26,813 bases of DNA from a virus (IMGVR_UViG_3300046011_002886:1-26813); one strand, 5' to 3'; positions 8,459 through 26,813 are shown, counted from the stretch's first letter. The notes: generated from the letters alone by a model not told the origin. Numbers and translations are program-made.

Positions 8459-9985
8459 TTACTTCAAACTCTTGAATTTTTTGTATGTATCTAACGGATA
8501 AAATTTTTCAACACCAAATCGGAGTGAAGCGTCATCATAGTTATCTCTAATTAAGAAATATACATTTTTTAATTCAGATGGCAAAATACCTTTGTACCAT
8601 TTATTTACATAAAATTGAAGACCATCGTTTATAACTTGTCCAAGTCTGTATCGATAAGGTTGTTTCATAAGTTCTATTCCTCTCAACCGAGGAGATATTA
8701 TCGGACCACCTTCAAAAATAGATTCTTTTGTTTCAATCGTATCTCTAAAAGTATATCCTGTTGGATTTGATATTGTTATAGGAAGATTTGATTGAGACCC
8801 ACCAAGTCTTTTATCATATCCTAGATTTGTTAGTGTAACTGTTATTGCAAATTGATATTCGTCACTACCAGTTATTTTTTTAACAACAGACTCGTGTAAA
8901 TCAACTGTTATATCCATATATGCGGGTTTTAATCTATCCAAATCTATTGTTAATCCAAACAAATTGTTTTCTTCAAATACCGATTTTGTCTCTTCTTCGA
9001 ATGCTTTAGAAACATCTTCTTGAACCGTACCATACGAAGGTTTATTACTCTTACCAGACCCAGTTCCTGTCCCAGTTCCAGTTCCTGTCCCAGTTCCAGT
9101 ACCTGTCCCAGTTCCAGTACCTGTTCCTGTCCCAGTACCTGTTCCTGTACCTGTTCCTGTACCTGTTCCTGTCCCAGTACCTGTTCCTGTACCTGTTCCT
9201 GTTCCTGTTCCAGTACCTGTTCCAGTACCGGTTCCAGTACCGGTTCCAGTTCCTTTTTTAATTGTACCCGGTTCTTGGTCATTCGGTATTCCATCACCGT
9301 CTTTATCAGAATCTTTGTCATTCGGTATTCCGTCACCGTCAATATCATCATCCAAATAATCCGGTGTACCATCACCATCTGTGTCTTGATTTTTAAGAAC
9401 GTCTGGTATTTTTAATCCTAAATCTGGTAAACTTAATATACCAACCCACGGTAAAATTAATGGTAATGGTGATGGAGCAGATGGGATTAAACCACTATAA
9501 ATACCAGCGATTGTAAACTGATGTTTAATCAAAGCATTTACAAATCCAGATAAAGCCATCTCACTATCTTTTTGTTTTAAGCCATCCTGAAGTTCTTTAT
9601 CAAGTGGGGTTGGTAGCCCAGGAAATACAACTTGACATCCAGCCGTCGGTGCAAACATAGGTGGCATTGGTGGTAACGGTGTAAATGTTGAGTTCAACCA
9701 ATAAAGACAAAAACCAAGAGACATTAACATGAATCCTGGTTCTATCTTATTTTTATCCGTACTTACAGATGTTATTCTTGAATTAACTTCTAATCCAAGT
9801 TGCAGGAATGTTTTTAAAGTATCTTTGTCACCTTTTATTAGTTTAGCACCGAAAAAAGGTCCACTACTACCAATGTTTGACAAATCATATGCCATTGCAA
9901 TTGTATCAGCAGCTTCAGCAGGGTCTTTAATTGATTGTGCGGCTATGTATGGTCGAAGATATGATTTTAAAATTTCTGCATTCAT
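8459..9985 (-). CDS. virion-type protein with thrombospondin-3-like calcium repeats and long Gly-Thr linker
   Basis: A 508-residue modular protein. Residues 1-195 are a globular domain with a hydrophobic, Pro-rich second half ([27 protein letters not shown]). Residues 200-240 carry tandem DxDxDG calcium-binding repeats of thrombospondin type 3 kind ([29 protein letters not shown]). Residues 245-309 are an unbroken Gly-Thr dipeptide run encoded by a 6/12-base tandem repeat. Residues 310-508 form a second domain with an alpha/beta look and a C-terminal segment ([17 protein letters not shown]). I do not recognise a named family; the domain-linker-domain plan suggests an extended virion component. 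The ATG lies 2 bases after the HNH gene stop (TAATAATG) with no Shine-Dalgarno, so coupling is likely. Signs of replication slippage are possible in the linker. Confidence 0.8.
9053..9253 (-). repeat. in-frame Gly-Thr minisatellite
   Basis: About 200 bases built from 6-base units (plus strand CCTGTT, CCTGTC, CCAGTA, CCAGTT and near variants, often alternating as a 12-base unit). On the coding strand every unit is a Gly-Thr pair, so gain or loss of units changes linker length without shifting the frame. Confidence 0.95.
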
Positions 9986-9987
9986 TA

Positions 9988-10599
9988 TTAGTGTCCATCA
10001 TGTTTAGCAGTAATATGTTTCTTTATATTTGAAATATCTATTACTCGTTCGCAATGAGGGCATTGAATTTTTTTCTTTTTTAGTGCCGATTCTGATTTTC
10101 TTTTGTTCGCTAATTCTCGATTTGTTAGATTCATTTTTTTACCACGATTCCATGCCGGCTTTCCACGAGTTGACTTTCCTGGATCTCCTGATGATATTCT
10201 TTTATGCACTTCTTCTGGGTCATACATTTTTGTCCAACTGATAATTCTACCGGACGAATATCCTTCTTTTAATATCTCTGCAAATTTTTTTCTATCTACT
10301 TTTGAAGCTGCATTTTTTGCCCACTTTATTCTTTCTTCTTTTGTTGCAGAATGAAATCCCAACTTCAAATCTCGTGTTAAATCACCACCTTTTTTACCAC
10401 CGATAGACGCCCATTTTGTAAATTCATTTTTATGAATTTTGGTATGTTCTTCTGCACTAACACATTGTAGATTAGAAATATCATTATTAAATGGGTTTCC
10501 ATCTATATGATGTATGTGATAACCTTTGGGTATTTTTCCGTAATAAGATTCGTAAATCTTACGATAATTTACACCAGACTGTTTGTGTTTTTTGCTCAT
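9988..10599 (-). CDS. HNH homing-type endonuclease with C-terminal zinc finger
   Basis: A 203-residue protein with an HNH nuclease core near the N terminus: [19 protein letters not shown] at residues 27-45, followed by [11 protein letters not shown]. The HH pair at 30-31 and Asn-39 are the expected catalytic and metal-binding residues. The middle has a [10 protein letters not shown] element (146-155), like DNA-binding modules of free-standing phage homing endonucleases. The end has a CxxC...H...H finger (Cys-180, Cys-183, His-195, His-200). It fits tightly between two structural-type genes (2-base gaps on both sides), as mobile HNH genes do in T4-like phages. No intron is seen around it. It probably spreads itself and neighbouring DNA between related phages; a packaging-linked HNH role is less likely because the terminase is far away. 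Confidence 0.88.
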
Positions 10600-12081: not shown

Positions 12082-12093
12082 ACTATAATTATG
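12082..12093 (-). promoter_or_regulatory. candidate late promoter motif
   Basis: On the minus strand this reads CATAATTATAGT, differing at one base from the exact 12-mer CATATTTATAGT found at 14895 and 17377. It overlaps the stop of the 760-residue enzyme gene and lies 28 bases before the ATG at 12053. The TATAGT part could serve as a -10 element. Confidence 0.35.
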
Positions 12094-14371
12094 TTTTGAA
12101 TTTGAAATAATTCAGAAGTTGATTGATTGGTGCAAATGTACCTGTCAATTTATACGTCTTACCTTTAAAAGAGAAAACAATTCCTTCAAGTGGTACGATT
12201 GAATCAATTCCACCAGCACCCTCTATTCTCTTGAGTTGTTTTTTTAAAGTAGATATATCCTCTAATTTATTAGAATTTGAAAGTGTGTTGATTGCGAGTT
12301 CGACTTCTCTACGAATTTTGTTAGTAGTATTCGTTGGATTTAAAGCCATTACATTTTGAACATTCTTCAAAATTTCTGCACCGAACTCCAAGACCAAAAT
12401 TTCAAATGGAAGAACGTTGGTTTTTACTTGTTCTTCTACTTTAGTTTTATCCATTTCTTTTGCCCACTTCAAAACGTTTGAATCTGGTATGTTTGAACTG
12501 TTTAGTGCAAAAGATTTATCGTTAAATGCCCATCTCTTAACCAAATTATCTTTTACAGAGTTTTCCAACTCCAATCCATTTTCTTTTAGACTTTTATTTA
12601 TGTAACGTTTCCACCATCTTTGATGCCAAACACCGATTGTATCTGTATCAGAACATTTCATTTTATTTTGTAGTGCTGTTAATTTTCCTATGAAATATCC
12701 TAATCTTTCGTTGAACTTTTTGGATTTTGTAACTACTATTCTTTTAGGTTCACTTATTTTAAATGTACTTTGAGTATGAGCATTTGCTTGTTTAATCATA
12801 CCAGCTAAAATTCTAGCATATTGTGGAAAATCTTCTATCTTTTCACCACTATCATTATACAAAGAAACACCGTGAAAAACAATGTATGCACCGTCATAGT
12901 TTATGATGTTTTGACTTTTTGGGTACATTACTTCAAGATTCATCCACGCCTTACCACCTTGAAAAATTTTCTCTTGCTGTTTTGGAGTAAGTTGTTGAAT
13001 TGATTTTTCCAAATCAGAGAAAGCAATTGTAAATGCCTCTTCAATAGCACCACGACCACTAAACTTTGTCTTAATTGTCTGATAGTCCATTCCACCATTT
13101 TTGATGTCTGATTTATTTCTGGCAGCATATAGTTTACCTTCTCTAAATGAAGCAAAAAGATTTTGACCGTCTAATTTTTCAGTTGGATTTCCTTTAACAG
13201 TAATTTCACCAGACAATCCAAGTCTAAACATTTCTTTCATGTCACCAAATGTAAGACCAAAATCTTCAAATGGATGAGCCATGTGTCCAGCAGCACCACC
13301 TTCTGTAATAAGTGGTCTATCATCTTTGGCAACTTCTGTAAATACTTCATTCCAAAATTCTCTACGAACAATATCAAGTCTTTCTTTTTCGGGTTCTGTA
13401 TTTTCTGGGAGAAGATTTATTTTGAATTTTTTAGCAAGTTGGATTATTATCGGAATCATTAACATAGTTCCTGGAATTGGAATCGCTGCTATTGCTCCAA
13501 GTCCAGTTAACTTTAAAAGGTCTTTCATTTGATTTCTAAATAATACCTTTTCACGGTCTGTTATTTGTCCTGTTTTAATAAACTTTTGTAATATTGGAAG
13601 CAAATCCTTTGTATCACCATATTCCTTTTTAAGAATATCGAAGAACATCATACTTTGTTCTTCTGACATATTTAAAAGAACTCGAAACCATTCATTCAAG
13701 TCTTCTTTTAGTTTACCACGTTTTGCATTGAGTTTACCAATAACCATGTTAAAAATACCAGCATCAAACCAACCAAAAATTTGTTTAAATCGATGTTTTA
13801 ATTCGGATAATTTTGCTGTTTGGTCTCCGAGTGCCTTACGAATATTTGTTCCTGACATTTCTCCCGCCGATGGTATGTTATATGATACGTGTGGTGCATA
13901 CACATAGTAGGTGTATGGGTCATCTAAATCTTTTGCTGGAACATATGTGGTTTTATTAAATACCATAAGTCGTTTGAAACCACGGAGTCTTCCCTTATCC
14001 TTTTCACCAATCATATAAACAATAGTAGTTTCTTTTGGATCGAGACCCGATTTTTCAAAGAATTGAAGTGGACTATATGGATTTGTTACTTCTATTATTT
14101 GACTTTCTGGTACACCGTGCTTTAACATTATTCTTTTCTTTTCACTAAATGTGAACGGTGACTTTTGACCATCTACTTTATTAGAAGTTACAATATATGT
14201 GTTTTCTGTTCCAAATTGTTTTCTTAACCAAATATATGAATCTTTGTGATGGACTCCCATTGGTTGAAAACGACCAGGATATACGGCAACAAGATTTCCT
14301 TTATCAGAATTATCTTCATTAAAAATTTGAAGTCTTATTTCTTTTAATATACTTTCGACGAGTTTACTCAT
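12089..14371 (-). CDS. multidomain enzyme: NMNAT-like nucleotidyltransferase + LETM1-like segment + KxDG ligase-type domain
   Basis: A 760-residue protein with three parts. Residues 25-182 resemble the HIGH-type nucleotidyltransferases (NMN or cytidylyl type): YPGRFQPMGVHH at 31-42 and MSGTNIRKAL at 172-181, the counterpart of ISSTxIR. Residues about 235-325 hold a hydrophobic block (GLGAIAAIPIPGTMLMIPIII) ending in KKFKINLLPE, similar to LETM1-like segments. Residues 355-750 carry motifs of the covalent nucleotidyltransferase (DNA/RNA ligase) superfamily: motif I EKLDG (Lys-399), motif III-like WMNLEVMYP (Glu-480), IIIa-like YIVFHG (496-501), motif IV LEGIVF (728-733) and motif V YKLTG (740-744). 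It may work on NAD metabolism and nucleic-acid joining, but no substrate can be read from sequence. The start has GGAG 6 bases upstream and overlaps the chaperone gene by 8 bases. Proteins with the N-terminal part are known in T4-like marine phages as cytidylyltransferase-like. Confidence 0.8.
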   Translation of the reverse strand: MSKLVESILKEIRLQIFNEDNSDKGNLVAVYPGRFQPMGVHHKDSYIWLRKQFGTENTYIVTSNKVDGQKSPFTFSEKKRIMLKHGVPESQIIEVTNPYSPLQFFEKSGLDPKETTIVYMIGEKDKGRLRGFKRLMVFNKTTYVPAKDLDDPYTYYVYAPHVSYNIPSAGEMSGTNIRKALGDQTAKLSELKHRFKQIFGWFDAGIFNMVIGKLNAKRGKLKEDLNEWFRVLLNMSEEQSMMFFDILKKEYGDTKDLLPILQKFIKTGQITDREKVLFRNQMKDLLKLTGLGAIAAIPIPGTMLMIPIIIQLAKKFKINLLPENTEPEKERLDIVRREFWNEVFTEVAKDDRPLITEGGAAGHMAHPFEDFGLTFGDMKEMFRLGLSGEITVKGNPTEKLDGQNLFASFREGKLYAARNKSDIKNGGMDYQTIKTKFSGRGAIEEAFTIAFSDLEKSIQQLTPKQQEKIFQGGKAWMNLEVMYPKSQNIINYDGAYIVFHGVSLYNDSGEKIEDFPQYARILAGMIKQANAHTQSTFKISEPKRIVVTKSKKFNERLGYFIGKLTALQNKMKCSDTDTIGVWHQRWWKRYINKSLKENGLELENSVKDNLVKRWAFNDKSFALNSSNIPDSNVLKWAKEMDKTKVEEQVKTNVLPFEILVLEFGAEILKNVQNVMALNPTNTTNKIRREVELAINTLSNSNKLEDISTLKKQLKRIEGAGGIDSIVPLEGIVFSFKGKTYKLTGTFAPINQLLNYFKFKT

Positions 14372-14873
14372 TTATCACTCCGTTCTCATCTGGTGGTGTT
14401 ATTAATCTATATGTTGGGTCATCCATAGATGGTTTTTCAGGCCATATTACCATATCAGGTGATTCATAATTTGTTATATCACGTAATGCCTGACGGTATG
14501 TTGTCCATTCTAATTTCTTTTCATCTGACATTGGTACATCTGAAAGTTGTGTCCAATCACATTCTTGAAGATAAATTGCTCGTTGAGCACGAATGTTAAT
14601 CCATTTCTGGTTGATTAAATCTTGTATTTCCGATTCTGTTTTTGTTGCAACAGTTTGATACTCAACTACTTCGGTTTCTTCTATTACAAAATAAGAACCG
14701 GTTACTTTATCGTTTTCACCTAAAGTTGCTTCAACAAAACGATGGGGATACCAACCATATAATTTAAGAGTATCATTGTCCAATACTTTAAAGTTGGAAA
14801 TATTCTTCCAATTTATTGGTAACATCACCGGACCTTCTATTACTTGTCCATCTTGGACATACACGTATCTCAT
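14364..14873 (-). CDS. tail-fibre assembly chaperone-like protein
   Basis: A 169-residue protein. Its C-terminal half matches the phage tail assembly chaperone pattern (Tfa/Phage_tail_APC type): RAQRAIYLQECDWTQLSD at residues 95-112, then EWTTYRQALRDIT (122-134) and VIWPEKP (142-148). Such proteins help fold or attach tail-fibre tips. The N-terminal half (1-75) is beta-rich with YGWYPHRFVEATL and is probably the specificity part. The start at 14873 has a strong GGAG ribosome site, with an exact copy of the recurrent AT-rich motif 21 bases further upstream. It sits downstream of the fibre and RCC1 genes but separated from them by the glycosyltransferase cassette. The stop overlaps the next gene by 8 bases. 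Confidence 0.82.
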   Translation of the reverse strand: MRYVYVQDGQVIEGPVMLPINWKNISNFKVLDNDTLKLYGWYPHRFVEATLGENDKVTGSYFVIEETEVVEYQTVATKTESEIQDLINQKWINIRAQRAIYLQECDWTQLSDVPMSDEKKLEWTTYRQALRDITNYESPDMVIWPEKPSMDDPTYRLITPPDENGVINE

Positions 14874-14909: not shown

Positions 14910-15686
14910 TTAGACAGAAAACGAATCCCAAAGTTCTTTCCAATCTAAGTAAGGGTCTTTTTGTGTTTCATAAGCCATGTGAAGAGCTACCGATGGAATT
15001 GGAGTGAATAGAGTTACTTCTTCTCTCCATATTTTATTTATCATAGTTGATTCATTGACGTGATTCATTTCACCCCAAAGAGTTCCATACTCTGTTGCCA
15101 TTGTATAAAATACGTGCCATCTGGCTCTAACTATCTCCGGATTACAAAGAAAGGTGAACGTGGTATGTAGATTTGTTCTCCAATGACGGTTTTTACCATA
15201 AACAATACGGCAAGGTTCTATCCAAACAGGTAAATAATTATCAGGGTCATCGAATGGATGAATAGAGATTTCTCTACCCAAATTTTCTTTGAACTTATAA
15301 TAGGAGTCAACCATCTCATCGATTGCAGTCGGAAAGTGAAGGTAATCATCTTCCACAAAGTAAACTAAATCAGCATCCGAATCTCTACCACGTTCAAATT
15401 GAGCCAAACCACTTCCTTGCCAACCTTCAGATTCTAATGGTATGAAATTGTAAGGATGTTTTGTCCCTTTGAAAATCTGATGGAGTTCTTCTATCGTTTG
15501 TTCTGAAGAATGGTCATCGTACCACCAATACGTTATATCGTGTTCCGAATTATTACAAGTTTCTACCAAAGATTTTACACATTTCTTTACCACCGTTGTT
15601 TTATTTGCTTTACAATAACGTGGGTCTTTTGATACGTGAATTTCCCTCTTATCGTGGGTTCGTAAGATTACATCTAATTTAATCAT
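14910..15686 (-). CDS. GT-A fold glycosyltransferase-like protein
   Basis: A 258-residue protein with the plan of a family-2-like (GT-A) glycosyltransferase: a first strand IKLDVILRTHD at 2-12, ITYWWYDDHSSE at 51-62, the donor loop with ESEGWQGSGLAQFERG, and the DxD-like VYFVEDD at 108-114 for metal and nucleotide-sugar binding. It would transfer a sugar from an activated donor to an unknown acceptor in the cytoplasm. I chose the ATG at 15686, which overlaps the methyltransferase stop in an ATGA junction and has GGGA a few bases upstream. An ATG at 15698 adds four residues (MGKR) but has no ribosome site. Part of a three-gene cassette with a methyltransferase and a GT-B enzyme. Confidence 0.82.
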   Translation of the reverse strand: MIKLDVILRTHDKREIHVSKDPRYCKANKTTVVKKCVKSLVETCNNSEHDITYWWYDDHSSEQTIEELHQIFKGTKHPYNFIPLESEGWQGSGLAQFERGRDSDADLVYFVEDDYLHFPTAIDEMVDSYYKFKENLGREISIHPFDDPDNYLPVWIEPCRIVYGKNRHWRTNLHTTFTFLCNPEIVRARWHVFYTMATEYGTLWGEMNHVNESTMINKIWREEVTLFTPIPSVALHMAYETQKDPYLDWKELWDSFSV

Positions 15687-16303
15687 TCTTTTTCCCATAC
15701 CGTCAGTTTTTTATCGTATCTGTTTATGTAATCGTATCGACCAATAAACTTGAATTTCTTACTCACTTCTTCTTCGATATTGATACCATCGTCATTCCAA
15801 ATGATATTACGAGTTTCGTCAATACCACTCGGAACAAATCTCTTTTCTTCGTTCATCAAAACAAACTTACCACCTTTGTTCAGAATCGAATGGATAAACT
15901 CAATATCTTGGATTGGATGTTCACTGTGTTGTAATACAAACAAAGCCATAACAAGGTCGTATTTCATATCTTCCGTCGGTACAAATCCTTTCGAATATAC
16001 CACGGGTGTAAATATTCTACTTAACACAAATTCGTTTGCCCAACCCAACATAGGTTCACTAATATCAAACCCCGTCACGGGACAGCCAAGTCGTTGTATG
16101 AGTGCTTTACTCATACGACCAACACCACAACCAAAATCTGCAACCTTTGAGTAATTGTTCGCCAGATTTTCTTTTAATAGAAAGTCTAATAGAAACATCG
16201 TTTCTTTTGTAAACTTTTGCGGTACTCGACCATCTGGAGTAAGGCAAATATCCTTTGCGTGTTCTAAACTTTTAGGATAAAAAGCTTCCTTCAAGTATGA
16301 CAT
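15683..16303 (-). CDS. SAM-dependent class I methyltransferase
   Basis: A 206-residue protein with clear class I methyltransferase motifs: VADFGCGVGR (residues 54-63, SAM-binding motif I), the acidic end of strand 2 in VTGFDISEPMLGWA (Asp-80), YDLVMALFVLQHSEHP (about 114-130) and LNKGGKFVLMNEE (about 142-154). The family (Methyltransf_11/25 type) acts on sugars, small molecules or proteins and lacks DNA-methylase target motifs such as DPPY or NPPY. Lying between two glycosyltransferases, it most plausibly methylates a glycan made by them. The start has AGGG 8 bases upstream and follows the GT-B gene after 5 bases; its stop overlaps the GT-A gene. Acceptor unknown. Confidence 0.88.
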   Translation of the reverse strand: MSYLKEAFYPKSLEHAKDICLTPDGRVPQKFTKETMFLLDFLLKENLANNYSKVADFGCGVGRMSKALIQRLGCPVTGFDISEPMLGWANEFVLSRIFTPVVYSKGFVPTEDMKYDLVMALFVLQHSEHPIQDIEFIHSILNKGGKFVLMNEEKRFVPSGIDETRNIIWNDDGINIEEEVSKKFKFIGRYDYINRYDKKLTVWEKE

Positions 16304-16308
16304 ACGGA

Positions 16309-17346
16309 TTACCCTTTATGTTCTTCAGCTAACTTTGTAAGGTCTTCTCTAATCTGTTGGAATGGAACATCCCATTCACCGTACTTTACTTGACGGTATA
16401 ATTTTACTGAATCATACCATCTTGAACCGTCACCAGGAACTGCCCATGTATAATAAGGCATAATTGGAGTTAGAACCCAAGTTGGTTTACCCATTGCTGC
16501 TGCAAGGTGTGCAGTCGCGGTACACGAACTAATAATAATGTCACAGTCTGCCATAATGTTTGCGGTATCATCCCACGACTTCATCTGTTCTCTCATGTCT
16601 CCGAACGGTAGACCATCAATTAGATTTTCATCACGTTGAAGTGAATAAAATGTTGTGTTTGGAATATCGTGGAGTCCAATCATTAATTCAGGTGGGAAAC
16701 GGCGATGTTGTTCATCTTCAAAATCAGGACTACCCGACCAACGAACACCAACCTTTAAAGAACCTTTCTTTGCGAAAAGTGTTCTTCGTTCTTTTGGTTT
16801 TAAGAACGGTGAACCATCAAGGTCTTCATATTCCATGTCCAAGATAAATGCAGCTGACATAGCTGGAACCCAATAGTCATAATGAGCACCGAGTGCAACT
16901 TCATTATCAATACAAATATACCCGTGACGAGAAAATAATTCTTTTAGTTCTGGTGCACAAGAAACAAGAACCCTTGCTCCTTTTTCTTCGAAATTTTTTG
17001 CAAAACGGAAGTTAAGAATTTGGTCTCCGTAACCACCTTCACATCTGAAAAGAAGTGTTTTTCCTTCAAGTGGCTCATCCTTCCAAATTTTTCCTGGAAG
17101 TGGTGGTAATCCAAATACATCGATATACCGACCGTAGTTAAAATGTTCCATTGCCTTTTTGAGATTACCGTGTCTCATTTCGTGCCAACCAAGATTAAAA
17201 AGAACCCGTAGGTCATCTTGTGGTTGGGAACGTAGAATATCCTCACTAATTTCAGGATGTCCGTTGATTGAAGCTTGAAGTGCAATATCAAGTGGGTGCA
17301 TTTGACCCGGTTCTATTTTGTCTGCTCGGTTCTTCATATGATACAT
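16309..17346 (-). CDS. TPR-linked GT-B glycosyltransferase (GT9/GT41-like)
   Basis: A 345-residue protein. Residues about 16-75 form paired helices of TPR type (LRVLFNLGWHEMRHGNLKKAMEHFNYG). A GT-B domain follows: TLLFRCEGGYGDQILNFRFA (97-116) matches the GExGxGDxI(Q/L) N-terminal loop of heptosyltransferase-like enzymes. VGVRWSGSPDFEDEQHRRFP marks the start of the C-terminal half, and the donor-site region IISSCTATAHLAAAMGKPTWVLTP is near the end. It would transfer sugars to a protein or glycan acceptor. Two starts are possible: the ATG at 17346 (used here) and one at 17337; AAGG lies 2 bases from the first but 9 from the second, so the shorter form may be the real one. An exact copy of the AT-rich motif lies 30 bases upstream. 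Confidence 0.85.
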   Translation of the reverse strand: MYHMKNRADKIEPGQMHPLDIALQASINGHPEISEDILRSQPQDDLRVLFNLGWHEMRHGNLKKAMEHFNYGRYIDVFGLPPLPGKIWKDEPLEGKTLLFRCEGGYGDQILNFRFAKNFEEKGARVLVSCAPELKELFSRHGYICIDNEVALGAHYDYWVPAMSAAFILDMEYEDLDGSPFLKPKERRTLFAKKGSLKVGVRWSGSPDFEDEQHRRFPPELMIGLHDIPNTTFYSLQRDENLIDGLPFGDMREQMKSWDDTANIMADCDIIISSCTATAHLAAAMGKPTWVLTPIMPYYTWAVPGDGSRWYDSVKLYRQVKYGEWDVPFQQIREDLTKLAEEHKG

Positions 17347-17432: not shown

Positions 17433-20400
17433 TTATTCTTGACGAATAGCTATGGTATGCGATATACTAGAACATGATTTAATCCACTTAGAGTATGTAC
17501 CGATTTGTACTGGCACAGAACTAGGAAGTAAACTTGTTGGGTTACCAAGTTGACCTTCTGCATTTCTTCCCCATGCCCAAAGTGTGCCGTTTCCACGAAT
17601 TGCAGTTGTGAATAAGTATCCAGAATAAACAGATACCCAGTCTGTAAGTGTTCCAATTTGAACAGGTGATGATCTATTGATGATTGTACCATCTCCCAAT
17701 TGACGAAATGTATTAAGTCCCCATGCCCAAAGTGTTCCATCTGTTTTGATTGCCATTGTATGTGAAACACCAGCAGAAACCTTTGACCAGTTTGTAAGTG
17801 TACCGATTTGAATTGGAGAGGAACGTGTTGTTACCGTACCATCACCGATTTGACCGGCGGTGTTTGTACCCCAAGCCCAAAGTGTTCCTGTTGTTTTTGT
17901 GGCCACACCGTGGTCTCCACCAAGTGATAATTCTGACCAATTTAAATCAGGTTGTACAAGAACGGGTGTTAATACGCTTGCGGTAGACGAGTCTATTGTA
18001 TTATTAAAACCAAGTTGACCTTGAGAATTTCTACCAAATCCATACAAATTACCGGTAGTTGTAATAGCAATAGTGTATGAAAAACCAGATGAAACATTCG
18101 ACCAATTTGTAAGAGTTCCAATCTGGACGGGAGATGATTTTGAAACAGTGGTTCCGTCACCCAATTGAGCACTTGAATTCAGTCCCCATCCCCATAGAGT
18201 TCCATCGGTTTTTATCGCCATAGAATAGTCAGAACCGGCCGATACTTTTGACCAATTTGTAAGAGTTCCGATTTGAACGGGTGAACTTCGATTGATTATA
18301 TTATTTTGTCCAAGTTGTCCTGATCCGTTTGTGCCCAATCCCCAAAGAGTTCCGTCCGTTTTGATTGCGATTGTGTGTGAAACACCACATGAAACATTCG
18401 ACCAATTGGTCAGAGTTCCGATTTGAACTGGAGAATTTTTACTAACAACAGTTCCGTCTCCCAACTGCCCACTCGTTCCTAATCCCCATGCCCATAATGT
18501 ACCATCTGTTTTTATTGCTGATGTATGAGTTGCGCCGCCGGAAATTATTGACCAATTTGTAAGAGTTCCAATTTGAACGGGTGAACTTCTGCTTATAAAA
18601 GTTCCATCACCAAGTTGACCAGATGTATTCCATCCCCATCCCCATAATGTGCCGTCAGTTTTTATAGCCATAGAATAAGATGAACCGGCAGAAATCTTTG
18701 ACCAATTTGTGAGTGTTCCTATTTGAACGGGTGAACTTGTATTCACAACAGTACCGTCTCCAAGTTGTCCTGACGTATTGAGTCCCCATCCCCATAAAGT
18801 ATCGTCGGTTTTTACGGAGAGTGTGTGAGCTTGTCCTCCTGCAATTTTAGACCAATTTGTAAGAGTTCCTATTTGAACAGGTGATGATTTTGATACAACT
18901 GTATTGTCACCAAGTTGTCCTGATCCGTTTAAACCCCATACCCATAGAGTTCCATCTGTCTTTATAGAAAGTGTGTGGGATTGACTGGCCTGTTCTGCAG
19001 GTATTTTTGACCAATTTGTTCCTGAGTCAACTAATCGTGGGGCCGTTGGATATATTCCTAATTTACCACTTGTAATATTACCCCAAGCCCACAAAGATCC
19101 ATTTGTCTTTATAGCCATTGTTATCATTGCCCCATCACCACCACCGGCAGAAATTTTTGCCCAATTTGCATCTGTTCCTATTTGAACAGGAGAACTTCTA
19201 TTAATTATATCACCCTGGCCAAGTTGACCTCTATCATTTGCACCCCAAGTCCAAATTGTGTTATCTGTTTTCAAAGATATTGTATGTGAATGAGAAAGAC
19301 TTACTTGCGACCAGTTTGTGAGTGTACCAATTTGTACAGGTGAACTTCTAAAAACAACAGTATTATCACCAATTTGTCCGGCGTTATTTGCACCCCATCC
19401 CCACAGAGTACCATTTGTTTTAATACCCAGTGCATGCATTCCTAAAGCACCGGTATCAATATTTGACCAATTCGTTAAAGTTCCAATTTGTACCGGTGAT
19501 GAACGTTGCATCGTATATCCGAGTTGACCTGACGTTTGTAATCCCCATGTGTAAAGATTACCACCGGTAGATACGCCGATTGAATGTGAACCGATTCCGT
19601 TTACATCTTTCCAATTTGAACCCGGTAATTGAACAGGTGAACTTCTTGATACAATTGTACCATCACCAAGTTTACCTGTTGTATTTGTTCCCCAACCCCA
19701 AAGATTTCCAGAGGTGGTTATAGCAACAGAATGGTCTATGTTTGAGTTTACTTTTGACCATGACGTAAGGGTGCCGATTTGAACAGGATAACTACGACTG
19801 ATAACTTGACCGTCACCAATACGACCGCCACCACTATTTCCCCAAGCCCAAAGTGTACCGTCATTTTTTACAGCAAGTGTATGGTTAGCGCCAGCAGAAA
19901 CTTCCGACCAGAATCTATCATCGCCAATTTGAACTGGTGAGGAACGTGTGGTTCTTGAGCCTATAAAGTTTAGACCCAATTGACCTTGTGCATTCAAACC
20001 CCAACCTAACATAGAACCATCCGATTTTAAACCGATGATATGGTTTTGTCCACGACCAATTTCAAACCAATTTGTTTTTGTTCCTATTTGGACAGGAGAG
20101 TAACGAGTTGTTGGTGCAGTTGGAAATGTACCAAATCCTACATTTGAGGCAAGTGTATCACCGAGATAGTTTGTTGCAACACCCCATCCCCAAAGTGTTC
20201 CATCGGTTTTTGTAGCATAGGTACGATTGATTGTAGCCCATACATCAGACCAAGTGGTCAGAGTACCGATTTGAACAGGAGAAAGTTGTAACGAATCTCC
20301 GCCACCTATAGTTGAGTTTAGACCTAATTGTCCTAATCCATTTTCACCAGTTGCATATAATCCATTGCCTCCGGCTACAATAGCTGAATTAAATAGTAAA

Positions 20401-23400
20401 TTTACACCGGCATATGTCCAATTTGTTAAAGTTCCAATTTGTACAGGCGAGCTTCTATTAATTATTGATTCTGTACCCAAACCCCCATTTATATTGTATC
20501 CCCATGACCATAAAGTTCCATTGGTCTTTATAGCAAATGTTGAACTTGTACCAACAAATACATTCAACCAATCCGTTAAACTTCCTATTTGAACCGGCGA
20601 GCTTCTTGCGAATCCAGAATTATCACCAATCTCACCATATGTATTTACACCCCAACCCCATAAAGTTCCGTCGGTTTTAATAGCCATACTATTACTTCCA
20701 CCAGCCGATACTTTTGACCAATTTGTAAGAGTTCCGATTTGAACGGGTGAACTTCTATTCACAACAGTACCGTCTCCAAGTTGTCCAGAAGCATTTATAC
20801 CCCACCCCCAAAGCGTCCCATCCGTTTTTACTGATATTGTGTGAGTAGCACCAGAGGATGCAATTGACCAATTATTTAGTGTTCCTATTTGAACAGGTGA
20901 ACTTCTACTTGTTACATTATTTTGTCCGAGTTGCCCAGAGCCATTGTTACCCCATGACCATATTGTATTATTTGTCTTTATTGCAGTCGTATGTATACTT
21001 CCAGCTGATATGGAATACCAATCTGATAGAGTTCCTATTTGTATAGGTGATGAATATGATGTTGTGTTGTTTACTCCAATTTCTCCATTTGAGTTTCTAC
21101 CCCAACCCCAAATTGTACCATCTGTTTTTATTGCCATTGTAGAAGAAAACCCAGTCGATACATTTGACCAATTATTTAGTGTTCCGACTTGAACAGGTGA
21201 ACTTCTATTGATTGTATTATTTAACCCTAATAAACCAAATGCATTACCACCCCAAGCCCAAAGTGTACCATCTGTTTTTATAGCCATGGTTTGTGATGTA
21301 CTTGATATTACAGACCAATTTAAATTATTATCAATTTGTGTTAATTGTAATGGTCGTATTCCAAGTTGTCCATTTGAATCATTACCCCAACCCCAAATTG
21401 TACCATCTGTTTTAATAGCTATAGAGTGGTTCTCACCAGCAGAAACTTTTGACCAATTTGTTAAAGTACCTATCTGTACCGGAGAGCTTCTATTTATGGC
21501 AGTACCATCTCCAATTTGAGCAAATGTTGAATTTGAACCCCATGCCCATAGAGTACCGTCGGTTTTTATTGCAAGTGTATGATTACCACCAGTCGATACC
21601 CTTGACCAATTTGTAAGTGTACCTACTTGAACAGGTGATGATCTTGGTATAACATTGGTTTGACCTAATTCACCATTTGTATTACTACCCCAACCCCATA
21701 AAGTTCCATCTGTTTTTATTGCCATTGAGTGAGAATTATATGAACTAAAATTAGATGTCCAATCAGTTCCTGTTCCAATTTGTGTTGGAGACCATCTAGA
21801 CGATATATTACCCAATCCAAGTTGACCAGTGGTATTAATACCCCATGACCAAAGGGTTCCATCGGTTCTTCTTCCTATTGTGAAGGCGTTAGCTGCTGAT
21901 ATTTTTGACCAATTTGTATCAGTTCCTATCTGAACAGGTGATGACCATACTGTTATATTTGTACCTATTAAATTATTTGTTCCTAATTGACCAAGTGCAT
22001 TATCGCCCCAAACATAAAGATTTCCACTTGTATTTATTGCAGCTACACTTGATGGTAAAGATGCCCAGTTTGTTAGTGTACTTATTTGCACAGGAGAAGA
22101 ACGTGTAATGATAGCACCATCAGTTACAGAATAAGTACCACCTCCAATATACCAAAGGGTTCCATCAGTTTTTATCGCAAGTGTGCTTCCGTATGCTGAC
22201 ATGGATGCCCAATTTGTTAATGTGCCGACTTGAACAGGTGAACTTCTACTTATAGTGTCATTCAATCCTAATAGTCCGGTTGAATTTGAACCCCAAGCCC
22301 AAAGAGTTCCATCTGTTTTAATCGCATATGAACTATCTCTTGATTGATTGATTATTGCCCAATTTGTTAAAGTTCCAATTTGAACAGGAGAACTTCTTGA
22401 TACAGTTGTTCCGTCTCCAAGTTGTCCAGACCCGTTTGCACCCCAACCCCATAGAGTTCCATCTGTTTTTATAGCCATAGAAGTTGAACCATTGGTCGCT
22501 GATACTTTTAGCCAGTTGGTAAGTGTTCCAATTTGAACAGGAGAATTTCTGTTTATAGTAGTTCCATCCCCCACATTACCAGCAGCACTGTTATACCCCC
22601 ATCCCCATAACGTTCCGTCGGTTCTAGTTGCTATTGTGTGAGCGACTCCGCAACTAATATCATACCAACCAGTTCTGGTTCCTATTTGAACTGGTGATGA
22701 CTTATTCACAGATGTTCCGTCTCCAAGTTGTCCATATGTTGAATTCCATCCCCATCCCCACAAAGTACCATCTGTTTTGATAGCCATTGAGTGAGAACCA
22801 CCTATTGCTACTTTTGACCAATTTGTCAAAGTTCCTATTTGAACAGGTGAACTTCTAGATATTGTTGTTATGTCACCTATTTGACCGAATGTATTTTCAC
22901 CCCAAGCCCAAAGAGTTCCATTAGTTTTTATAGCAAGCATATGACGACTTGGACCACTTGCGGTTGCCCAATTTGTGTTATTATCAATTAGTCTTGGAAG
23001 TGAGTAAAATAATCTTATACCAGATTCTCCATTTGTATCATTACCCCAACTCCACAGAGTACCATCTGATTTAATACCCATTGTATAAGAATAACCAGCG
23101 TCGGTATCAGACCAAGTGTCTATATTCAATCTCGTTGGTGTTATTGGTTCGTTACCGAGTTCACCTGATGTATTTAGACCCCAACCATAGAGTGAACCGC
23201 TGGTGTCTATTGCCATGATGTGTGAGGCACCAGCTGATATTTTAAACCAATTTGTAAGTGTTCCAATTTGAACGGGTGAACTTCTACTTATTGTATTATT
23301 TTGTCCAAGTTGTCCGTCCGCATTATATCCCCACCCCCAAAGAGTTCCGTCTGTTTTAATTGCAAGAGTATTAAGATTTCCAGCTGAAACAGATAACCAA

Positions 23401-23858
23401 TCTGTTAAAGTACCGATTTGGACAGGCGATGACCTATTAATAATTGTTCCGTTACCAAGTTGACCATACAGATTATAGCCCCATGTCCATAATGTTCCGT
23501 TAGTTTTTAAAGCAATTGTGTGTGAGCCACCTCCGGAAATATTTAACCAATTACTATCAGTTCCTATTTGAACAGGTGATGATCGAGATACTATATCACG
23601 AAGACCAAGTTCGCCGTTTGCGTTTGCTCCCCAACCCCAAAGAGTTCCATTTGATTTTATAGCAAATGTATTTGTAGTACCAGCACTTCCACTCACCCAT
23701 GTTGTTTCTGAATCAATTTGATATGGAACATATGTCAATATACTATTATCCGTTTGACCGAATGTACCATCACCCCAACCCCAAAGTGTATATTGAGGTG
23801 GAATGTATGGTGTATAACTTCTCGATACCTGTGTTACTATGTTTTTTATAAACGGCAT
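17433..23858 (-). CDS. giant RCC1-repeat protein (42 repeats), probable virion adhesin
   Basis: A 2141-residue protein. After a 22-residue N terminus (MPFIKNIVTQVSRSYTPYIP) it consists wholly of 42 repeats of about 50 residues with the RCC1/ATS1 pattern. The consensus is TLWGWGxNxxGQLGDG, then xxxRSSPVQIGTLTNW, then SKVSAGxSHTMAIKTDG. RCC1-type repeats each form one blade of a seven-bladed propeller, so 42 would build six propellers; this is arithmetic and family knowledge, not seen directly. Blades 5, 6, 17 and 32 lack the SSPVQ segment and blades 12 and 24 are degenerate. No signal peptide, membrane segment or enzyme motif is present. It lies directly after fibre genes, which suggests an extended virion protein binding the host surface. 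The start at 23858 follows the previous stop by 3 bases. Confidence 0.9.
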   Translation of the reverse strand: MPFIKNIVTQVSRSYTPYIPPQYTLWGWGDGTFGQTDNSILTYVPYQIDSETTWVSGSAGTTNTFAIKSNGTLWGWGANANGELGLRDIVSRSSPVQIGTDSNWLNISGGGSHTIALKTNGTLWTWGYNLYGQLGNGTIINRSSPVQIGTLTDWLSVSAGNLNTLAIKTDGTLWGWGYNADGQLGQNNTISRSSPVQIGTLTNWFKISAGASHIMAIDTSGSLYGWGLNTSGELGNEPITPTRLNIDTWSDTDAGYSYTMGIKSDGTLWSWGNDTNGESGIRLFYSLPRLIDNNTNWATASGPSRHMLAIKTNGTLWAWGENTFGQIGDITTISRSSPVQIGTLTNWSKVAIGGSHSMAIKTDGTLWGWGWNSTYGQLGDGTSVNKSSPVQIGTRTGWYDISCGVAHTIATRTDGTLWGWGYNSAAGNVGDGTTINRNSPVQIGTLTNWLKVSATNGSTSMAIKTDGTLWGWGANGSGQLGDGTTVSRSSPVQIGTLTNWAIINQSRDSSYAIKTDGTLWAWGSNSTGLLGLNDTISRSSPVQVGTLTNWASMSAYGSTLAIKTDGTLWYIGGGTYSVTDGAIITRSSPVQISTLTNWASLPSSVAAINTSGNLYVWGDNALGQLGTNNLIGTNITVWSSPVQIGTDTNWSKISAANAFTIGRRTDGTLWSWGINTTGQLGLGNISSRWSPTQIGTGTDWTSNFSSYNSHSMAIKTDGTLWGWGSNTNGELGQTNVIPRSSPVQVGTLTNWSRVSTGGNHTLAIKTDGTLWAWGSNSTFAQIGDGTAINRSSPVQIGTLTNWSKVSAGENHSIAIKTDGTIWGWGNDSNGQLGIRPLQLTQIDNNLNWSVISSTSQTMAIKTDGTLWAWGGNAFGLLGLNNTINRSSPVQVGTLNNWSNVSTGFSSTMAIKTDGTIWGWGRNSNGEIGVNNTTSYSSPIQIGTLSDWYSISAGSIHTTAIKTNNTIWSWGNNGSGQLGQNNVTSRSSPVQIGTLNNWSIASSGATHTISVKTDGTLWGWGINASGQLGDGTVVNRSSPVQIGTLTNWSKVSAGGSNSMAIKTDGTLWGWGVNTYGEIGDNSGFARSSPVQIGSLTDWLNVFVGTSSTFAIKTNGTLWSWGYNINGGLGTESIINRSSPVQIGTLTNWTYAGVNLLFNSAIVAGGNGLYATGENGLGQLGLNSTIGGGDSLQLSPVQIGTLTTWSDVWATINRTYATKTDGTLWGWGVATNYLGDTLASNVGFGTFPTAPTTRYSPVQIGTKTNWFEIGRGQNHIIGLKSDGSMLGWGLNAQGQLGLNFIGSRTTRSSPVQIGDDRFWSEVSAGANHTLAVKNDGTLWAWGNSGGGRIGDGQVISRSYPVQIGTLTSWSKVNSNIDHSVAITTSGNLWGWGTNTTGKLGDGTIVSRSSPVQLPGSNWKDVNGIGSHSIGVSTGGNLYTWGLQTSGQLGYTMQRSSPVQIGTLTNWSNIDTGALGMHALGIKTNGTLWGWGANNAGQIGDNTVVFRSSPVQIGTLTNWSQVSLSHSHTISLKTDNTIWTWGANDRGQLGQGDIINRSSPVQIGTDANWAKISAGGGDGAMITMAIKTNGSLWAWGNITSGKLGIYPTAPRLVDSGTNWSKIPAEQASQSHTLSIKTDGTLWVWGLNGSGQLGDNTVVSKSSPVQIGTLTNWSKIAGGQAHTLSVKTDDTLWGWGLNTSGQLGDGTVVNTSSPVQIGTLTNWSKISAGSSYSMAIKTDGTLWGWGWNTSGQLGDGTFISRSSPVQIGTLTNWSIISGGATHTSAIKTDGTLWAWGLGTSGQLGDGTVVSKNSPVQIGTLTNWSNVSCGVSHTIAIKTDGTLWGLGTNGSGQLGQNNIINRSSPVQIGTLTNWSKVSAGSDYSMAIKTDGTLWGWGLNSSAQLGDGTTVSKSSPVQIGTLTNWSNVSSGFSYTIAITTTGNLYGFGRNSQGQLGFNNTIDSSTASVLTPVLVQPDLNWSELSLGGDHGVATKTTGTLWAWGTNTAGQIGDGTVTTRSSPIQIGTLTNWSKVSAGVSHTMAIKTDGTLWAWGLNTFRQLGDGTIINRSSPVQIGTLTDWVSVYSGYLFTTAIRGNGTLWAWGRNAEGQLGNPTSLLPSSVPVQIGTYSKWIKSCSSISHTIAIRQE
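17436..23792 (-). repeat. 42 tandem ~150-base RCC1-coding repeats
   Basis: About 6.4 kb of tandem, imperfect repeats, one per RCC1 blade. DNA as well as protein is conserved: the 20-mer GACCAATTTGTAAGAGTTCC (plus strand) recurs near-exactly around 18100, 18250, 18550, 18850 and 20717, among others. Other blades use different synonymous codons for the same residues, so copies of different ages are mixed. Confidence 0.93.
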
Positions 23859-23861
23859 AAC

Positions 23862-24227
23862 TTATAAATTTTGTCCTCCTACAAATGAAAACCAAGTTGT
23901 ACCACCATCTATCGTTACGAATGAAAATATATCTTCTTTACCATTTGTAGAAGTAAGTGTTGGTGCAGCTGCACTTGGCCATAAAAAACTAGCTGGCCAT
24001 GTAATTGATCTTGCAGTTCCATCGGCAGTAAATATAATTGTAAAAGAAGATGCAGCGATTGGTTGAGTATTTGATATTGTCAAAGTAGTTACGTTTGCAT
24101 TTAAATTTACATAAAAAATACCAGCGGTACTCAAATTCAATGTAAGTGTGCCACCACTAATTGATGCACTCGCACTTACTTCTGAAAGGGTTTGTACTCC
24201 ATCAAGAGACCGAGACCAATTTGACAT
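23862..24227 (-). CDS. small beta-rich virion/tail-fibre-type protein
   Basis: A 121-residue protein of a kind common in tailed phages, with a beta-strand-rich fold and the conserved ending: DGTARSITWPASFLWPSAAAPTLTS, then NGKEDIFSFVTIDGGTTWFSFVGGQNL. Homologous domains are found in tail fibres and other exposed virion proteins. The open frame begins at a TTG at 24233, but the ATG at 24227 is the better start because GGAG lies 9 bases before it and only 3 bases before the TTG. A variant of the AT-rich motif lies about 19 bases upstream. It stands between the second fibre gene and the RCC1 giant, with 3 bases between its stop and the next ATG, so it is probably part of the same host-contact structure. 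Confidence 0.75.
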   Translation of the reverse strand: MSNWSRSLDGVQTLSEVSASASISGGTLTLNLSTAGIFYVNLNANVTTLTISNTQPIAASSFTIIFTADGTARSITWPASFLWPSAAAPTLTSTNGKEDIFSFVTIDGGTTWFSFVGGQNL

Positions 24228-24245
24228 AAACAATTACTCCTTTTT

Positions 24246-24257
24246 ACTATAATTATC
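24246..24257 (-). promoter_or_regulatory. candidate late promoter motif (variant)
   Basis: Minus-strand GATAATTATAGT, two bases different from the exact 12-mer. It overlaps the stop of the fibre gene and lies about 19 bases before the ATG at 24227, upstream of a GGAG ribosome site. It would serve the small fibre-type gene and the 6.4 kb RCC1 gene. Confidence 0.33.
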
Positions 24258-25167
24258 CACTAACCTGAACAATATGTGTTACGGCATTCCAATAAATTGT
24301 TTTTGCAGTTTCACCCGTTACTCGTAATACTAATCTACCACCAATAGCAACCGCAGTTGCTGCCCATGCCGGTGTATCTTCTATTGCCGTGACTTGAACA
24401 GCCCCTACAAGAGCAACTGCCCCTGCATTATTATCTATAGCACCTTGTAACCAATAAGCAGCACTTTCATTATCAGCATCCGTTCTTCTTGCAACAATAT
24501 ACGAAGTAAACATCCAAGTTGTATCATTTGGAACAGCAAGACCAGCTGGATTGTTCCATACGTTAAATTGAAGTGATGTTTGATTTCCATCTGTTGTACT
24601 ACCCGACGCATAAACTTTATATTCTGGAAACGCAGCTGAGAAATCTCCTAATTGTGGTGTTGCAGATATAAGTCCACCGTTGAATGAACCAATAACACCA
24701 GGACCAAACATATGAGAACGGACAGAAGTTCCTGTATCTTTAAGAGTTATTTCCGATTGACCCCATTCGCTTCCATTTGTGTGTGTTGTCCATACATAAT
24801 CAAGAAAACCAACGGTTGTGTTTTCCGTTGTACTCGTTTCTGATTCAAACTCGATGCCAACACCAAAACTTTGTGTGGCAGTTCCTGTTGTGTTGTTTAT
24901 TAAATTTAGGTTTCGTATCGGTGCATTTGCAGTAGATGTACTCGATGAAACTGTAAGTACAGAACCGTTAAACGTTATATTTGCAGAACCAGTTAAGTCG
25001 GAACTACTTGGCCCACTCAATACCAATCTACTACCACTAAAGTTTGAAACACTTGCTCCACCACCGCTACCAAGTTGACTTGTAAGTGCAAAAGTTCCAG
25101 AAGACGTTGGATATGTTAGTGTTACGTCTACTGATGCTGAAATATATTTCGATAAGTATCTACCCAT
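24253..25167 (-). CDS. tail-fibre protein
   Basis: A 304-residue Ser/Thr/Gly-rich protein. Residues 1-95 have the repetitive beta pattern of phage fibre shafts (LTYPTSSGTFALTSQLGSGGG, then ANITFNGSVLTVSSSTSTANAPIRN). A middle domain (95-200) follows with TTVGFLDYVWTTHTNGSEWGQ. The C-terminal part (about 205-304) carries a TSYIVARRTDADNESAAYWLQGAI block, ending VLRVTGETAKTIYWNAVTHIVQVSG. This C-terminal domain is clearly related to that of the neighbouring collagen-type fibre at 25432, so the two arose by duplication or share an exchangeable tip. No catalytic motif is visible. The start lies after the 83-residue gene with a weak GGA ribosome site. Likely binds or supports host-receptor contact. 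Confidence 0.82.
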   Translation of the reverse strand: MGRYLSKYISASVDVTLTYPTSSGTFALTSQLGSGGGASVSNFSGSRLVLSGPSSSDLTGSANITFNGSVLTVSSSTSTANAPIRNLNLINNTTGTATQSFGVGIEFESETSTTENTTVGFLDYVWTTHTNGSEWGQSEITLKDTGTSVRSHMFGPGVIGSFNGGLISATPQLGDFSAAFPEYKVYASGSTTDGNQTSLQFNVWNNPAGLAVPNDTTWMFTSYIVARRTDADNESAAYWLQGAIDNNAGAVALVGAVQVTAIEDTPAWAATAVAIGGRLVLRVTGETAKTIYWNAVTHIVQVSG

Positions 25168-25431: not shown

Positions 25432-26813
25432 TTACTCCGATATTTTCATAAACGTTATAGTAGACGACCATCGTATTGTCTTACTAGTTTGACCAGTTAC
25501 ATATAATCCAAAATTAGAAAAGTTAGAAATTTCTATCGAAACATCCCATGCACCACCAGATGTATCGGCTATACTTTCTATAAGTGGTGAACCAACGATA
25601 TATGCAGTTCCACTATCATTTGAAATAAGACCACTAACTCTCCACATCGCAGATTCTCCATCTGCATCAGTTCTTCTGGCAACTACCATACCTGTGAAGG
25701 CATATGTTGCAGGGGAAGAAAGTGAAAATCTAGTAGACACAAAATCCCCGTCTACAAATAATTCGGTTTTTGTATTTGTATATGTAGTTATATAAAATTG
25801 TGTTTGATATTCTTGATTGTCCCCATCAGTAGAAAATCTACCACCAGACCAAATACGTGAATACGGTATATCACCTTTTGCACGGTTTCCACCTACGAGT
25901 GAGTAATATCCATTATTTGATGCAGAAACATAATATCCTATTGTTGTTGCACCAACTCCTTCGTTTCTATTATTTACTCCCAATGAAACAGCATTGGTTG
26001 CAGTAACGATACTACCGTTTCCAAGTGCAATACTCGTTTGTCCTGTTGCATATACACCATATCCAATAGCAACAGCACCTAATGCAGATGCTCGGTTGAA
26101 TGAACCTATGAGTATAGAGTTATTACCACTTGCAACATCAGCTGCATTTATTCTTGTAGTTCCTAAATCAACAGCATTTTGTCCACGTTTATTTCCACCT
26201 GTTGTAGTTGAATCGGGAAGTTGTCCAAGAATAGCACCTGAACCTTTTGGTTGGATAACAACATCAATATTTGTTGCAGAACCGCTAGCAAGTAATCTAG
26301 AAGCAAAAACTGTATTATTTGGACTAGTCGTTTCTAATGAACTTGTAAATCCAGTTACTACACCACTTAAACCAGATGTTCCTGAAGAACCAGATGTACC
26401 CGAACTTCCCGAAGTTCCCGAAGTTCCCGAAGAACCAGATGTTCCCGAAGTTCCCGAAGTTCCCGAAGAACCAGATGTTCCTGATGAACCTGATGTTCCC
26501 GAAGTCCCCGATGAACCAGAAGTTCCAGAAGAACCTGAAGTTCCTGATGAACCTGATGTTCCGGATGTACCTGATGTTCCGGATGTTCCCGATGAACCAG
26601 TTTGTCCTGATGTTCCTGAAGAACCTGATGTTCCTGATGTTCCTGAAGAACCGTTGGCTCCAGATGTTCCTGAAGAACCGTTGGCTCCAGATGTTCCTGA
26701 TGAACCAGTTTGTCCTGATGTTCCTGAAGAACCGTTGGCTCCAGATGTTCCTGATGAACCATTGGCTCCAGATGTTCCCGATGAACCTGATGTTCCTGAA
26801 GAACCTGTTCTCC
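25432..26813 (-). CDS. collagen-like tail fibre with YadA-like head, N-terminal part cut by window edge
   Basis: The frame is open from the right edge to a stop at 25432, giving about 459 residues of a longer protein. In order: about 149 residues of Gly-X-Y (GSS, GTS, GAN, GQT triplets) forming a collagen-like stalk; a linker region containing VVIQPKGSGAILGQLPDST; a YadA/Hep_Hag-like head with the repeating pattern SILIGSFNRASALGAVAIGYG and TSIALGNGSIVTATNAVSLG; and a C-terminal domain with MVVARRTDADGESAMW, ending GQTSKTIRWSSTITFMKISE. Collagen stalks and YadA-like beta-rolls are trimeric, so a trimeric fibre is expected. A shorter frame beginning at 25983 would start on an internal TTG and is not a separate gene. 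The C-terminal domain is shared with the next fibre gene. Confidence 0.88.
   Translation of the reverse strand, partial: RTGSSGTSGSSGTSGANGSSGTSGANGSSGTSGQTGSSGTSGANGSSGTSGANGSSGTSGTSGSSGTSGQTGSSGTSGTSGTSGTSGSSGTSGSSGTSGSSGTSGTSGSSGTSGSSGTSGTSGTSGSSGTSGTSGSSGTSGSSGTSGLSGVVTGFTSSLETTSPNNTVFASRLLASGSATNIDVVIQPKGSGAILGQLPDSTTTGGNKRGQNAVDLGTTRINAADVASGNNSILIGSFNRASALGAVAIGYGVYATGQTSIALGNGSIVTATNAVSLGVNNRNEGVGATTIGYYVSASNNGYYSLVGGNRAKGDIPYSRIWSGGRFSTDGDNQEYQTQFYITTYTNTKTELFVDGDFVSTRFSLSSPATYAFTGMVVARRTDADGESAMWRVSGLISNDSGTAYIVGSPLIESIADTSGGAWDVSIEISNFSNFGLYVTGQTSKTIRWSSTITFMKISE
26365..26813 (-). repeat. collagen-like Gly-X-Y coding repeat
   Basis: About 450 bases of 9-base-based tandem repeats (plus-strand units such as CCTGATGTT, CCCGAAGTT and CCAGATGTT) encoding roughly 50 uninterrupted Gly-Ser/Thr-Ser, Gly-Ala-Asn and Gly-Gln-Thr triplets. 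A longer unit (GANGSSGTSG type) recurs about four times near 26640-26770. The repeat continues past the right edge. Confidence 0.93.

Follow-up and report, generated by a model that had tools for sequence, protein, structure and literature searches.

The locus described here raises the question of why a phage gene encodes 42 RCC1-type units, exactly six times seven, and what the resulting protein is for. The window, meaning the whole stretch of DNA that was analysed, consists of 26,813 nucleotides of viral sequence (IMGVR_UViG_3300046011_002886:1-26813). Judged by its terminase, the phage has Microcystis phage Mel-JY01 as its nearest isolate (66%), followed by Flavobacterium phages (56%).

The array gene and its tail-fibre surroundings

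The RCC1 array gene (17433..23858) lies on the minus strand, with its ATG at 23858 and its stop codon ending at 17433, and encodes 2141 amino acids. Splitting the protein with a regular expression gave 42 units. A wrap-around alignment to a 50-column unit profile also gave 42 units, over residues 23-2141, with zero gap between units and zero residues past unit 42; this profile was trained on the array's own 42 units and serves as a check of the boundaries, not as an independent discovery of the repeat. The real protein scored 2917 against the profile, while five shuffled sequences scored 166-222, less than one-tenth of that value, and contained no strong unit. The Pfam RCC1 model, PF00415, scored 1059.7 bits against a cut-off of 21.7. 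Used by itself, the Pfam model lists 32-37 units in the array protein, because several of the units are short or degenerate. The same 42-unit gene is present in two other metagenome assemblies (L009 and L010). The original prediction, that 42 units fill residues 23-2141 with nothing after the last, is confirmed, the count by both the split and the profile alignment and the extent by the alignment. The array is preceded by a 22-residue leader, MPFIKNIVTQVSRSYTPYIPPQ (23793..23858, minus); within this lineage, comparable leaders stand ahead of arrays that range from 7 to 56 units.

By sequence, the nearest solved relatives of the array are UVR8, HERC, RCC1 and RPGR, and BLIP-II has been placed in the RCC1 group (PMC9218822). 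All of these proteins are built from the same repeat as the array, but their domains have about seven units, whereas the array has 42 in a single chain and is encoded in a phage tail-fibre locus. Phages also encode other RCC1 proteins, named 'regulator of chromosome condensation', which include PHROGs families 7220, 4219 and 16766, GAP32 gp001, the 121Q gene cluster, and proteins of S-SRM01 and BUCT-ZZ01.

The genes on either side of the array belong to a tail-fibre module. Starting 3 bp upstream, a short protein (23862..24233, minus) resembles the C-terminal parts of tail fibre families (phrog_7760, 7.8e-18; phrog_9017, 3e-17). It is followed by a 304-aa protein of the fibre region that has no family match (24253..25167, minus) and by a collagen-like tail fibre protein (25432..26811, minus; Collagen, 1.1e-21, and tail fibre PHROGs), which runs off the contig end. 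On the downstream side, beyond a cassette of putative transferases described below, there is a tail-fibre assembly chaperone, identified by family matches to Phage_tail_APC (14364..14873, minus). In T-even phages, the gene for the gp38 adhesin sits after the distal fibre gene. The array gene occupies a comparable position, and an adhesin made by the array would be built of propellers.

Relatives of the array are joined to domains of a similar kind. In one locus (L026), the propellers are inside a protein that ends in an S74 chaperone domain, which is typical of tail fibres and spikes, and propellers are also seen joined to a laminin-G-like domain. In the isolate S-SRM01, the RCC1 genes come after a gene annotated as the long tail fibre distal subunit. 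GAP32 gp001, a distant RCC1-like protein, is reported to be a structural protein of virions, identified by mass spectrometry (cited in PMC5259590). Gene context and domain fusions thus support the view that the array is a host-recognition tail-fibre protein, a role already proposed in the original prediction; the reading is drawn from sequence. The protein would be carried in the virion and would bind a receptor. An intracellular or DNA-binding function, as suggested by the name of the family, has a basis in annotation, since PHROGs, going by the name, places the family in DNA metabolism and the 121Q homologues are annotated 'DNA condensation'. However, the position of the gene between fibre genes and a tail-fibre chaperone, the fusions to S74 and laminin-G-like domains, and the GAP32 homologue in virions all speak against this function, and we regard it as highly improbable.

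Several other genes were noted in this region. A 728-aa protein with no family match (L179:4870-7053) fills the slot of the RCC1 and transferase genes in one relative and is a candidate alternative adhesin. In the window, a 760-aa protein (12089-14371, minus) shows weak NMNAT/cytidylyltransferase-like similarity at its N-terminus and carries a ligase-like EKLDGQN motif in its C-terminal part; it is conserved beside the RCC1 cassette, is shorter in some relatives, and had no solved relative in our search. In the protein encoded at 8459-9985 (minus), many GT dipeptides in succession come after a DxDxDG-type stretch that resembles a calcium repeat, and the gene differs widely in length among relatives. 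An HNH-endonuclease-like gene (9988-10599, minus), found only in the closest relatives of the window (L009 and L018), is probably a recent insertion.

Unit counts among the relatives

Any single count has a chance of one in seven of being divisible by seven. The significance of 42 comes from the relatives, whose countable intact arrays of more than seven units are all multiples of seven. The relatives were taken from 53 IMG/VR loci, with more from two scans that included the neighbouring genes. Automatic counting gave a multiple of seven for 74 of 94 non-redundant open reading frames with at least three units. The remaining 20 were read by eye, with knowledge of the hypothesis; the 74 automatic counts are independent of this reading. 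Of the 20, 13 are also multiples of seven when flanking domains, a weak unit or half-units at both ends are considered, while the other seven give no count, being cut, split or too degenerate.

Among intact continuous phage arrays of more than seven units, none of the 30 non-redundant cases is off seven. These arrays have 14 units (n = 14), 21 (4), 28 (7), 35 (2), and 42, 49 and 56 (one each); three of the 30 (L150, L172 and L177) were counted by eye. Many other intact relatives are genes with exactly one block of seven units. Among single-propeller proteins the rule has one clear exception, gp335 of the isolate S-SRM01 (L231, 17329-18363), whose RCC1 gene is intact and encodes six units. The divisibility of 42 by seven, noted in the original prediction, extends to the intact longer arrays of the relatives.

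Other apparent departures were traced to flanking domains scored as weak units, to arrays whose start is shifted by half a blade, to contig ends (L218) or to split genes (L059 and L226). In L172 and L177, for example, the array starts half a blade later and the total is still 14. Outside the countable set are L060, L061 and a fragment in L051, and the RCC1 units of 121Q are too divergent for the unit counter. A retrained unit profile became inflated to 73 columns and was dropped, and the exceptions were read by eye instead. Bacterial relatives appeared irregular at first count and became regular once linkers and terminal half-units were taken into the count (eye reading of six loci, of which L065 is ambiguous). 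Two of the bacterial arrays have about 14 blades (L066) and about 28 (L069, Ruminiclostridium sufflavum); by eye, they have no linkers, and their starting point lies half a blade beyond that of the phage class. A different arrangement is seen in L022 and L023, where seven to ten separate genes stand in a row, each encoding exactly seven RCC1 units with a leader of its own, which is often proline-rich.

In the T4-like lineage of the window, arrays of 7, 14, 21, 28, 35, 42, 49 and 56 units share one locus order wherever their contigs extend far enough: the fibre end, the RCC1 gene and the transferase, then in some loci a methyltransferase and a second transferase, and after these the chaperone, the NMNAT-like protein, the terminase and the portal. 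The series is formed by 7 units (L039, L040, L045), 14 (L028-L030, L032, L033), 21 (L017, L119, L125, L152), 28 (L016, L021, L048), 35 (L012, L014), 42 (the window), 49 (L011) and 56 (L013). On a tree of the adjoining transferase (34 rows), at least 16 changes of unit count are needed, a number that is an estimate since many inner branches are weakly supported; counts of 21, 35, 42 and 49 occur within one clade. The probability of sixteen hits on a multiple of seven by chance is 7^-16, or about 3e-14, if each change is free over the remainders, a figure that ignores moves in blocks of seven.

Proposed closed rings and the possible origin of the number seven

The counts suggest that the array forms closed seven-bladed rings, six of them in the window protein. 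Blocks of seven units are found parted by other domains, as 7+7+7 in L052 and 7+7 in L026, and in two Clostridioides phages insertions occur at units 8, 15 and 22. These observations and the counts in relatives favour the six complete propellers of the original prediction. The AlphaFold models give a divided result. A 21-unit model reached a pLDDT of 33.5. A 14-unit model, from a register-checked alignment, is locally confident (pLDDT 82.3, pTM 0.51), and stretches of about 200-260 residues, or four to five blades, fit RCC1-type viral models at 2.2-2.5 Å. The same model, however, fits whole seven-bladed domains poorly: among the matches listed against RCC1-family domains in the PDB, rmsd values are 12.8-21.8 Å and target TM scores 0.34-0.68, in match lists that are ordered by E-value and carry neither coordinates nor aligned ranges, so that a break in the aligned stretch looks the same as an open arrangement. 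Closure at every seventh unit is thus a prediction from the unit counts and the separated blocks, and the 14-unit model would also be compatible with a spiral.

The pattern of strands suggests that the chain begins halfway through a blade, the missing half of which lies at the chain's far end. Either each ring would close across this half-blade point, or the two ends of the chain would together complete one ring, with the others inserted between them. No position-specific linker signature was seen at boundaries of the 7|8 type; the usual turn between units runs unbroken across 7|8, 14|15 and the later boundaries, where a link from bead to bead might be expected.

An open right-handed RCC1 superhelix, with about seven blades per turn and a count fixed by whole turns, would account for the unbroken unit pattern, free of linkers over 42 units, and for the 14-unit model that is not superposed on closed seven-bladed domains among the listed matches. 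Against it, many intact relatives are single genes of seven units, the size of known closed RCC1 propellers, seven-unit blocks stand alone between other domains, the insertions fall at units 8, 15 and 22, and an exact multiple of seven has no obvious reason in a spiral. We find the superhelix unlikely. The rule of seven could also come from mutation, if arrays gained and lost whole blocks of seven units with no selection on folding. Such a process agrees with intact lengths that are all multiples of seven and with some exact repeats, as units 7 and 14 of L119 share 83 nt exactly and units 9 and 30 of L013, at a lag of 21, share 99 nt. However, similarity between units has no excess at lag 7 in nine arrays, and exact repeats of at least 45 nt show none either, with three pairs at lag 0 mod 7 against 2.5 expected. 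Exact repeats occur also at lags 1, 2, 3, 4, 6, 8, 11-13 and 16, and related arrays could not be aligned as a single inserted block of seven. The block explanation is weakened by these results, and we judge it improbable, although fast turnover could hide a history of blocks. Since neither similarity nor exact repeats have a period of seven units, selection on folding is the likelier counter than duplication of seven units, and selection for closed propellers is likely the simplest account of the lengths.

Known amplified propellers provide a comparison. WRAP, a recently amplified propeller, has 14 blades in two seven-bladed rings (PMC9218822, PMC6805158), and it resembles the array in having many similar blades per chain. 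Work on recently amplified propellers found variable and in many cases odd numbers of blades, 47 at most, and saw 'no counting system' in their amplification (PMC9218822). The lineage of the array, with multiples of seven up to 56, goes against this expectation.

The glycosyltransferase-like partner and the proposed adhesin

The gene located 86 bp downstream of the array (16309..17346, minus) encodes a 345-aa protein that we call GT9-like only, as its match to the GT9 family (PF01075; E 0.03, 14.1 bits) is below the cut-off of 22 bits. It also has a weak TPR match (PF07719, E 0.021), again below cut-off, and a profile search found no solved relative. Its counterpart in L178 matches GT9 with an E-value of 8.9e-11 and 42 bits. 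The same cassette includes a SAM methyltransferase (15683..16303, minus; Methyltransf_23, 4.3e-14) and a family 2 glycosyltransferase-like protein (14910..15698, minus), whose match to PF00535 (E 6.1e-4) is below cut-off. Homologues of the partner are less than 100 bp from the RCC1 gene in most loci, including those of unrelated phages that have several single-propeller genes. In a second clade, a GT8+GT9 fusion takes the partner position, and the homologue in L050 carries a sulfotransferase domain; L019 and L036 align with this homologue over the same extra part.

Among 63 syntenic loci with enough upstream sequence, the RCC1 and transferase genes are both present in 61 and both absent from two; nine of these loci, in which the array start is over 9 kb away, were re-read by eye, and the count includes some repeat fetches of one contig. 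Among isolates, the transferase occurs in 5 of 50,697 phage records. Four of the five records, which belong to three phages, come from RCC1 phages in which the two genes lie close together; BUCT-ZZ01 (14 units) and S-SRM01 have the partner nearby, as in the window. This pairing suggests that the GT9-like transferase may glycosylate the propellers. It is also quite possible that the protein is an adhesin while the target of the cassette is the host surface or some other phage molecule, the link between the two reflecting no more than a shared relation to the host surface. Lipopolysaccharide heptosyltransferases are known GT9 enzymes to which the L178 counterpart is similar, and the substrate of the cassette is a prediction from gene pairing. 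An action on another substrate agrees less well with the tight pairing of transferase and RCC1 genes across unrelated phages and with their joint absence where the adhesin slot has been replaced.

Taking glycosylation of the propellers as the working model, we propose that the array is the fibre-tip adhesin of a T4-like phage, encoded between the fibre genes and the fibre chaperone. Its 42 blades would close into six RCC1 propellers of seven blades each along a single chain, which the 22-residue leader may attach to the fibre. The units would recombine freely, and the length of the array could therefore shift fast; arrays short of whole propellers would misfold and be lost, leaving multiples of seven. 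The GT9-like transferase, often accompanied by a second glycosyltransferase and a methyltransferase, would add sugar to the propellers. Taken jointly, a tail-fibre-tip adhesin with six closed propellers, attachment by the leader, a fold-closure filter on length and glycosylation of the propellers appears on the whole probable. More tentatively, the system may be a glycosylated, length-variable string of propellers at the fibre tip, recombined at the level of the unit, counted by closure (one to eight propellers) and served by a dedicated glycosyltransferase cassette.

A string of propellers had been expected to be unusual for a phage host-recognition fibre, an expectation that holds only in part. 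RCC1 proteins as such are already known in phages, as the PHROGs families and the protein reported in GAP32 virions (PMC5259590) show. What is new here is the partnership with the transferase and the series of 7 to 56 units at one locus, neither of which was reported in the open literature searched. The partnership connects one specific gene, glycosyltransferase-like in sequence, with the RCC1 propellers encoded at tail loci of phages and suggests that phages may encode the modification of their own adhesins. The natural series of 7 to 56 blades changes rapidly between close relatives, and every intact array of more than seven units counted in it is a multiple of seven, so that natural variants could serve to test whether the closing of the fold filters the number of repeats.
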